DNA from: Cyclobacterium xiamenense
Lineage (GTDB): Bacteria > Bacteroidota > Bacteroidia > Cytophagales > Cyclobacteriaceae
Direction of reading: 5' to 3'
NCBI RefSeq assembly: GCF_009467825.1
Contig: NZ_WIOK01000029.1
Location: 1 to 41,127, forward strand
Length of the DNA: 41,127 bases
Position 1 is the first letter of the stretch; every line of letters starts with the position of its first letter. Under the pieces are notes generated by a model. The model searched no databases. It saw nothing but the letters and a program-made list of their open reading frames with translations, and was not told where the DNA came from. Below, in pieces: positions 40,798 through 41,127 of this stretch. The position numbers and the translations under genes are program-made.

Positions 40798-40873
40798 GAT
40801 TCCGTAGCTCAGCTGGTAGAGCATAACACTTTTAATGTTAGGGTCCTGGGTTCGAGCCCCAGCGGGATCACCA
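40798..40873 (+). tRNA. tRNA-Lys (anticodon TTT)
   Basis: 76 nt including an encoded CCA. The 7-bp acceptor stem is GATTCCG/CGGGATC with one G-T pair, discriminator A. D-arm AGCTCAGCTGGTAGAGC, anticodon stem TAACA/TGTTA with loop CTTTTAA (anticodon TTT), T-loop TTCGAGC. Unlike tRNA-Pro in this window, CCA is encoded. Its last 19 nt are the start of the tandem repeat that follows. Confidence 0.97.
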
Positions 40874-41127
40874 AAACAGAAAACTTGTTCTTCGGAGCAA
40901 GTTTTTTTTGTTTTTACAACTTTCAGGACTGGGCGAGAAGTTTATCCCGAAGAAGGGGAGCCAGAGCGCCGCTTCGGGAAGCCCCAGCGGGATCACCAAA
41001 ACAGAAAACTTGTTCTTAGGAGCAAGTTTTTTTTTGTTTTTACAACTTTCAGGACTGGGCGAGAAGTTTATCCCGAAGAAGGGGAGCCAGAGCGCCGCTT
41101 CGGGAAGCCCCAGCGGGATCACCAAAA
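40855..41127 (+). repeat. Tandem repeat (125-126 bp) starting in the 3' end of tRNA-Lys
   Basis: Three copies start at 40855, 40980 and 41106; the third is cut by the window end. Each begins with the tRNA-Lys 3' end AGCCCCAGCGGGATCACCA, followed by a terminator hairpin, a T-run and a spacer with an 8-bp stem (TCCCGAAG/CTTCGGGA at 40945-40952 and 40972-40979 in copy 1). Copies 1 and 2 are nearly identical; they differ at the terminator loop (TTCG versus TTAG) and by one T in the T-run. This is a recent or homogenised tandem duplication anchored in a tRNA gene. Confidence 0.93.
40880..40908 (+). terminator. tRNA-Lys terminator with a cTTCGg tetraloop
   Basis: An 11-bp stem with one G-T pair (AAAACTTGTTC at 40880-40890, GAGCAAGTTTT at 40895-40905) is capped by C(TTCG)G, an extra-stable RNA tetraloop, and followed by T8. 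It starts 7 bp after the tRNA CCA end. A copy with loop TTAG is at 41005-41030 in repeat 2. Confidence 0.9.

Follow-up and report, generated by a model that had tools for sequence, protein, structure and literature searches.

Short tandem units behind a tRNA-Lys gene of Cyclobacterium xiamenense and a proposed family of tRNA-loop insertions in Bacteroidota

Transfer RNA genes are a classic target of mobile DNA, and the elements known to use them are large and carry integrases. An integrative element that enters a tRNA gene supplies a new tRNA 3' end in place of the old, which is displaced. At the E. coli tyrT locus, rtT consists of 178-bp tandem repeats that follow the tRNA, each beginning with the tRNA 3' end. 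The tyrosine recombinases of integrative elements are the subject of a survey (available part of PMC8138268). In the fungal mitochondrial mORFs, known from Glomus atp6, atp9, cox2 and nad3 and from Allomyces atp6, the 3' end of a gene is replaced: an endonuclease ORF is inserted together with a replacement gene end and the native end is pushed downstream (accessible portion of PMC3630166). Small mobile hairpins have also been proposed in organelle DNA as the Allomyces double-hairpin elements, to go by the title of that work. Phage T6 SegB, a free-standing GIY-YIG homing endonuclease whose gene adjoins tRNA genes, has been implicated in cutting tRNA-containing DNA and in driving tandem amplification of the tRNA together with the nuclease (accessible portion of PMC13096335).

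We analysed a 41,127-nt stretch of C. xiamenense DNA (contig NZ_WIOK01000029.1), here called the window, at the end of which an array of short tandem units follows a tRNA-Lys gene. As in rtT, with which it was compared by description of the E. coli locus, tandem repeats stand behind a tRNA, start with the last 19 nt of that tRNA and contain a terminator-like hairpin; the units are 125-126 bp here and 178 bp in E. coli. With integrative elements the array would share the regenerated tRNA 3' end and the displaced old one, whereas the units described here are short (~60-150 bp), begin exactly at tRNA nt 59 and have no integrase between the repeated ends, the short units lacking coding space. Among the published systems found, the fungal mORFs come closest in logic and SegB in activity. 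The mORF arrangement of a replacement end upstream and a native end downstream was found at the tRNA-Leu of the same host; an endonuclease ORF inside the unit is absent from the window units and present in the related units L301 (incomplete), L236, L312 and a tRNA-Pro array. The mORFs differ in residing in mitochondrial protein genes rather than bacterial chromosomal tRNA and tmRNA genes, and, as far as the available text goes, the units here differ from them in their constant junction hairpin, their tandem arrays and the lack of a nuclease in most T-loop units. SegB likewise adjoins tRNA genes as a GIY-YIG nuclease, but it belongs to a phage and amplifies whole tRNAs, and the accessible part of that report describes neither a tRNA-arm hairpin nor tail replacement (PMC13096335). 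A literature search covering titles and abstract openings returned no description of such units, and the motif described below occurred in no paper found.

The tRNA-Lys array and its counterpart at tRNA-Leu(CAA)

All features of the array lie on the + strand. An intact tRNA-Lys(TTT) gene occupies 40798..40873 (Rfam tRNA, 69.1 bits); on the insertion reading set out below, its sequence from nt 59 onward would be the latest-acquired tail. Unit 1 (40856..40980, 125 bp), as delimited by repeat analysis and the module pattern, comprises tRNA nt 59 to the 3' end, a terminator, a spacer, a left arm and a hairpin module, and repeat analysis gave the same layout for unit 2 (40981..41106, 126 bp). A terminator-like stem search placed the stems at 40878..40907, with loop TTCG, and at 41003..41032, with loop TTAG. 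The left arm CTGGGC (40929..40934) is the complement of nt 59-65 of the next tRNA copy with one bulge, as seen by eye and in the family pairing statistics. The modules were located by motif search at 40935..40980, where the sequence is GAGAAGTTTATCCCGA-loop-TCGGGAA, and at 41061..41106. A third copy of the tRNA 3' end (41107..41127) is followed by a scaffold gap of 97 N and by at least one further unit at 41225-41340 of the contig (C28), which is 99% identical and ends at CCCCAGC.

The array thus has at least three units, and probably more than three, because the two sides of the gap would overlap if it held none. Tandem Repeats Finder reported period 126, 2.2 copies and 98% matches at 40855-41127, and a repeat search returned a 100-nt block (100%, spacing 126) and a 61-nt block (95%, spacing 125). 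The 3'-end 19-mer of the tRNA, AGCCCCAGCGGGATCACCA, is repeated at 40980 and 41106. Every unit holds an 8-bp spacer hairpin, TCCCGAAG/CTTCGGGA, and a terminator-like stem with a T run; three such stems were counted in positions 1-900 of L003 against a shuffle mean of 1.4. These analyses bear out a sequence-only reading of the window, which had described tRNA-Lys 3'-end repeats at a 125-126 bp period, each with its own terminator and 8-bp hairpin, and a change of terminator loop from TTCG to TTAG between copies; its comparison to rtT is fair as a description. It erred in taking position 41127 for the contig end. An assembly artefact at a contig end, which it had named as a possible refutation, was rejected in general, since a genome assembled as one contig (G106) contains arrays built in the same way.

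Rfam recognised the tRNA in the window array, otherwise giving only matches below the gathering score and none to an intron; the arrangement also departs from that of a group I intron in that an intact tRNA stands before the units. The tRNA-Lys arrays within the window contain no nuclease gene. On contig C26 the host has a second tRNA-Lys, without an array, so that one site is filled and the other empty, and the tRNA-Lys of empty relatives is followed by a similar terminator. The encoded CCA is replaced by CAA or CAT in several relatives and is therefore not essential for the feature. The last tRNA-Lys unit is followed in several species of the genus, as at L009, L017 and L019, by another conserved stretch, GCGGGAGGACAAGCCGTTAA..AATGTCC..GGACATTTTTAGGCTTGGGCCAGG.

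The sequence-only reading had also proposed looking for the spacer elsewhere in the genome. With the 71-nt query we obtained ten weak partial matches (E up to 10), two of which belong to a second array, at tRNA-Leu(CAA). Units at this tRNA are absent from five of the 12 genomes of the genus (G001, G002, G004, G006 and G011), where one terminator directly follows the tRNA. Alignment of the host with G002 revealed a 221-bp insertion, corresponding to two units, inside the tRNA-Leu T-loop, and the gap was identical in the other four genomes. In the host, the original terminator and flank now follow the last 3'-end copy, and the same terminator stands after the distal copy in L072, L080 and L082, which are from other genera. 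The six remaining filled genomes of the genus lack the original terminator behind the distal copy, and several of their modules have decayed. The 300 bases upstream of tRNA-Leu reached only 0.48 of the full score between G000 and G002. Since the insertion is in the T-loop and the original terminator lies downstream, the proximal tail would be the newcomer and the distal copy the original; if instead the empty sites arose by loss, the units exit cleanly. The tRNA-Lys units may have arisen as the tRNA-Leu units did, a history that we extend to them by inference because the distal flank of the tRNA-Lys array is rearranged. In G003, G009 and G010 (L248, L250, L252), the working tRNA-Leu has the acceptor CCTTGG/CCAAGG and the displaced distal copy a CTGG-type acceptor strand.

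Distribution of the module and its place in tRNA genes

The spacer hairpin contains the module motif GAGAAGTTTA-YCCCGA-loop-TCGGGR-A. With up to two mismatches, the pattern GGGYGAGAAGTTTAYCCCGA matched 31 sites in eight of the 12 genus genomes (reversed control, 1). The sites inspected in the genus were at tRNA-Lys and, in G000 and G007, also at tRNA-Leu(CAA), where the flanking stem is altered to fit tRNA-Leu. When the hairpin was required, the motif occurred in 34 of 390 family genomes and 14 of 84 genera (reversed control, 0), and in 6 of 296 sampled Bacteroidota genomes (control, 0). This patchiness, together with the absence of units at tRNA-Leu in five of 12 genomes, argues against a required role in tRNA processing. 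Some 85,000 species genomes were scanned, giving at least 118 stretches with the module. Among the matches listed, record titles mostly named Bacteroidota groups or genera, with some Neomarinimicrobiota, Chlorobiota, Balneolia and Delongbacteria, the phylum of the titled contigs being in part presumed. The remaining titles among those matches were two unspecified bacteria, two Magasanikbacteria, one Blastomonas and two contigs of a 'Bifidobacterium' MAG. The last two look misassigned, and the Blastomonas match was taken as chance because no tRNA was found there. In one of the Magasanikbacteria loci (L228), the tRNA upstream of the module seems by eye to be split by an intron of group I, a possible reason for its being missed by ARAGORN.

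Carriage on phages or plasmids was rejected: the bare 16-mer occurred in 27 viral contigs, in none of which it adjoined a tRNA 3' end by eye, and plasmid and phage records gave no match to one 40-base query. In viral contig L103 the TCGGGA is distant and apparently lies inside coding sequence.

Modules are placed mainly behind tRNA genes. Among the matches listed (at least 118 stretches), 115 of 155 exact modules had a same-strand tRNA or tmRNA no more than 600 nt upstream, at a distance of up to 100 nt in 92 cases; another 21 were near the start of the locus, six were farther off and 13 had no tRNA found, several of these last showing tRNA remnants by eye. In the family loci, a tRNA or tmRNA lay within 600 nt in 25 of 30, and the other five were at contig starts. 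The hosts of the module among the matches listed represent 20 anticodons and tmRNA (e.g. L150, L171, L204). The tRNA-to-module gap is 1.1 kb in L179. In L216, from a Bacteroidales MAG, a tRNA-Met is followed by genes that appear Fic-like by eye and by two modules separated by 5 kb, an arrangement suggestive of genes flanked by module-marked tRNA ends.

The copied block begins at a fixed point of the tRNA. In 110 of 114 first units among the matches listed it starts at nt 59, directly after the T-loop TTCGA; at least 12 of its first 14 bases were alike in 100 of these 114, and 99 combined this likeness with the TTCGA start. The position of the distal copy after TCGGG and two purines was fixed by construction of the search. 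In the 90 units in which at least 13 of the first 14 bases matched, identity most commonly ended at C74 (18 units), a base that is general in these tRNA genes (133/140). Trailers could be compared in 60 units, and the proximal and distal ones were alike, that is, above the 99th percentile of mismatched pairs, in 25 and not in 35. Alike trailers fit duplication and unlike trailers fit insertion.

Hairpin pairing and GIY-YIG relatives

Pairing of the left arm tracks the host tRNA. It involved nt 59 in 140 of 149 cases (shuffle mean 103, maximum 113), nt 60 in 131 of 149 (97.5; 106) and nt 63 in 89 of 149 (51.7; 67). At nt 59, 60 and 63-65 pairing was more frequent than in any of the shuffles among loci, and at nt 66 this held in the larger of two sets only; at nt 61-62 it was not above all shuffles. 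The foot pair of the inner stem, where the search pattern admitted T or C opposite A or G, was T-A in 158, T-G in eight, C-G in two and C-A in none (n=168), with more C-G in distant genomes. Of 147 distinct loops, 34 carried the motif GCGNAGC (shuffles: mean 0.77, maximum 4) and none its reverse complement. The reversed motif was also high (13/147 vs 0.63), an effect of motif overlap and of the common ancestry of the loops. GNA loops with closing G-C pairs have exceptional stability in DNA, according to the part available of PMC4686876. Loops of the RNA-stable type were not enriched (CTTCGG, 1/147; CGNRAG, 5 vs 7.0 expected). Folding z-scores were modest for DNA (-0.6 to -2.3, + strand) and were -0.36 and -1.47 for RNA. 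The nested hairpin was the centroid structure for L092, L095 and L128; it is not the minimum-energy DNA fold of the window unit.

A related palindrome, TCCCGATnnnnATCGGGA, occurs at a number of loci in D-loops, anticodon arms and variable loops of partial tRNAs standing beside intact ones, and other copies are far from a tRNA. Near modules we counted 10 GIY-YIG ORFs (seven loci, six genomes) in 200,774 bases, compared with two in 736,473 bases beyond 700 nt, tandem copies and fragments each being counted; 147 of 154 module loci, a partly redundant set, had no nuclease gene within 700 nt. A GIY-YIG reading frame lies between the tRNA 3' end and the module in L301 (incomplete frame), L236 (upstream tRNA broken) and L312.

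A search of 14 genomes with PF01541 uncovered tandem GIY-YIG arrays. Downstream of the host tRNA-Pro(GGG), at about 17550-19350 of contig C18 (L320:800-2600), stand four tandem units of ~364 bp, each with a GIY-YIG gene and a tRNA-Pro fragment in which a hairpin takes the place of the anticodon arm. Scores relative to the first unit were 0.99, 0.93 and 0.85, dropping with distance from the tRNA. Upstream of the same gene are two partial tRNA-Pro copies, their anticodon arms replaced by hairpins. In the one-contig genome G106, a tRNA-Asp (L340, G106:C1:3225000-3231800) is followed by 14 hairpin-marked GIY-YIG units of ~346 bp and preceded by six hairpins at 78 bp. We examined 27 of the 30 GIY-YIG loci listed: 14, representing 10 arrays, stood after a tRNA and 13 had no tRNA just upstream. 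An Rfam scan of 14 GIY-YIG loci gave one tRNA, and five array proteins were GIY-YIG in Pfam (44-70 bits). Layout and hairpin sequence are what link the nuclease arrays to the T-loop units as kin, because the nuclease hairpin lacks GAGAAGTTTA and is mostly in the anticodon arm in the arrays inspected.

A possible insertion mechanism and its rivals

These observations are best read as traces of a broad family of insertions into tRNA loops that extends through Bacteroidota and allied phyla and whose larger members carry a GIY-YIG gene in each unit. It is somewhat more probable than its negation, in our judgement, that the window units are nuclease-less members of such a self-restoring family, inserting into tRNA genes as follows. 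A small unit would enter the T-loop of tRNA-Lys between nt 58 and 59. Its left end would supply nt 59-74 of the tRNA anew, together with a fresh terminator, by which the tRNA would stay functional, and its right end the hairpin module. The displaced old tRNA 3' end would then lie directly after the module, its T-stem strand pairing with the module left arm, presumably as single-stranded DNA folds. Tandem arrays would arise as later units join beside the intact tRNA (polar growth) or through amplification by unequal recombination; distal ends are decayed or truncated in several arrays. The short units are probably nuclease-less derivatives that would rely on a GIY-YIG nuclease, perhaps cutting the tRNA loop, or on ordinary recombination. 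The intact proximal tRNA would stay a target, so immunity after insertion is unexplained. The fuller proposal, on which we place somewhat less than an even chance, is that these are mobile cassettes of tRNA and tmRNA loops in which the hairpin marks the displaced remnant and leaves the intact tRNA as sole target, the GIY-YIG nuclease of the larger cassettes drives polar growth, and the short units are mobilised in trans. The sequence-only reading had listed a mobile-unit footprint at the tRNA end among its options, next to small RNAs and a buffering of tRNA 3' processing, and it is the footprint option that the empty sites, the T-loop insertion, the spread to other tRNAs and tmRNA and the nuclease-bearing arrays favour.

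Several observations nevertheless sit uneasily with insertion. The empty sites may be losses through recombination between 16-bp repeats, the alike trailers in 25 of 60 units suit tandem duplication equally well, and nuclease genes are missing from the window tRNA-Lys arrays and from the surroundings of nearly all module loci (147/154, as above). The main rival is a recombinase-based, integron-like or Xer-like system, in which the module would be a folded single-strand site, the T-loop the receiving site and the short units empty cassettes. This would account for the sharp nt 58/59 boundary, a shared block that ends most commonly at C74, unrelated trailers in 35 of 60 units, the arrays, the genes between modules at one locus (L216) and the GCGNAGC mini-hairpins in 34 of 147 loops, a class that stabilises DNA (PMC4686876, available part). 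Outer and inner stems are paired in the module hairpin, and no GTTRRRY box was seen by eye. We nonetheless consider such a system unlikely: among the 25 largest ORF clusters around the 118 loci listed, no recombinase-like cluster was recognised by eye, and a recurrent neighbouring recombinase was rejected on this ground; the reversed loop-motif control was raised as well (13/147 vs 0.63); one 40-base query matched no plasmid or phage record; and in none of the 27 viral contigs with the 16-mer did it adjoin a tRNA 3' end. If nothing is mobile, replication slippage at hairpin-prone, highly transcribed tRNA genes could have duplicated the units passively, with template switching perfecting the inverted repeat. 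The alike trailers, a left arm that mirrors the tRNA and the existence of 5'-end arrays upstream of tRNAs all agree with this. Slippage leaves unexplained, however, a fixed 16-nt sequence beside many tRNA types in several phyla (the 16-mer having been the search query), the likeness of nt 59-74 where trailers are unrelated, and the single insertion at tRNA-Leu, which together make passive duplication a distinctly unlikely account.

A function at the RNA level, either as processed small RNAs resembling acceptor-T minihelices or in tRNA 3' maturation, as proposed for rtT, would suit units that lie on the transcribed strand and a left arm that by eye reaches the complement of the acceptor strand in some loci (L165, L167, L183). 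Over the whole set, however, this extension beyond nt 66 was not above shuffles, the units are patchy within one genus, Rfam at the gathering score in five loci gave tRNA and tmRNA only, and neither the RNA-type loops nor the RNA z-scores stood out; we regard this function as very improbable. Mobilisation as REP-like elements by a Y1 transposase (RAYT or IS200-type) would agree with single-strand hairpin biology and with a Bacteroidetes-specific TnpA subclass with atypical hairpins (accessible part of PMC6006769). Yet Y1 transposase genes are present in all 12 genus genomes, module-free ones included, none of the 25 Y1 loci checked had a module with fewer than three mismatches listed, and no GTAG foot, nor the broader GT[AG]G form, was seen in the motif by eye. 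The Y1 link was rejected on these grounds and is extremely improbable.

On the insertion reading, units of ~60-150 bp appear to break and rebuild tRNA genes of 20 anticodons as well as tmRNA genes, the hairpin staying fixed while its outer arm follows the host tRNA. If true, they would be the bacterial counterpart of the fungal elements that replace gene ends and a natural system in which tandem arrays grow in a polar manner, and they would give rise to replaced tRNA tails and to partial tRNA repeats.

Other repeats were seen upstream of tRNA genes. In L140 and L205, mirror-image arrays of tRNA 5' ends stand upstream of tRNAs, with the D-loop hairpin TCCCGAT..ATCGGGA. In Cyclobacterium roseum (L088/L159), three tandem partial tRNA-Arg-like copies with an 85-bp period and an anticodon-arm hairpin lie upstream of tRNA-Lys.
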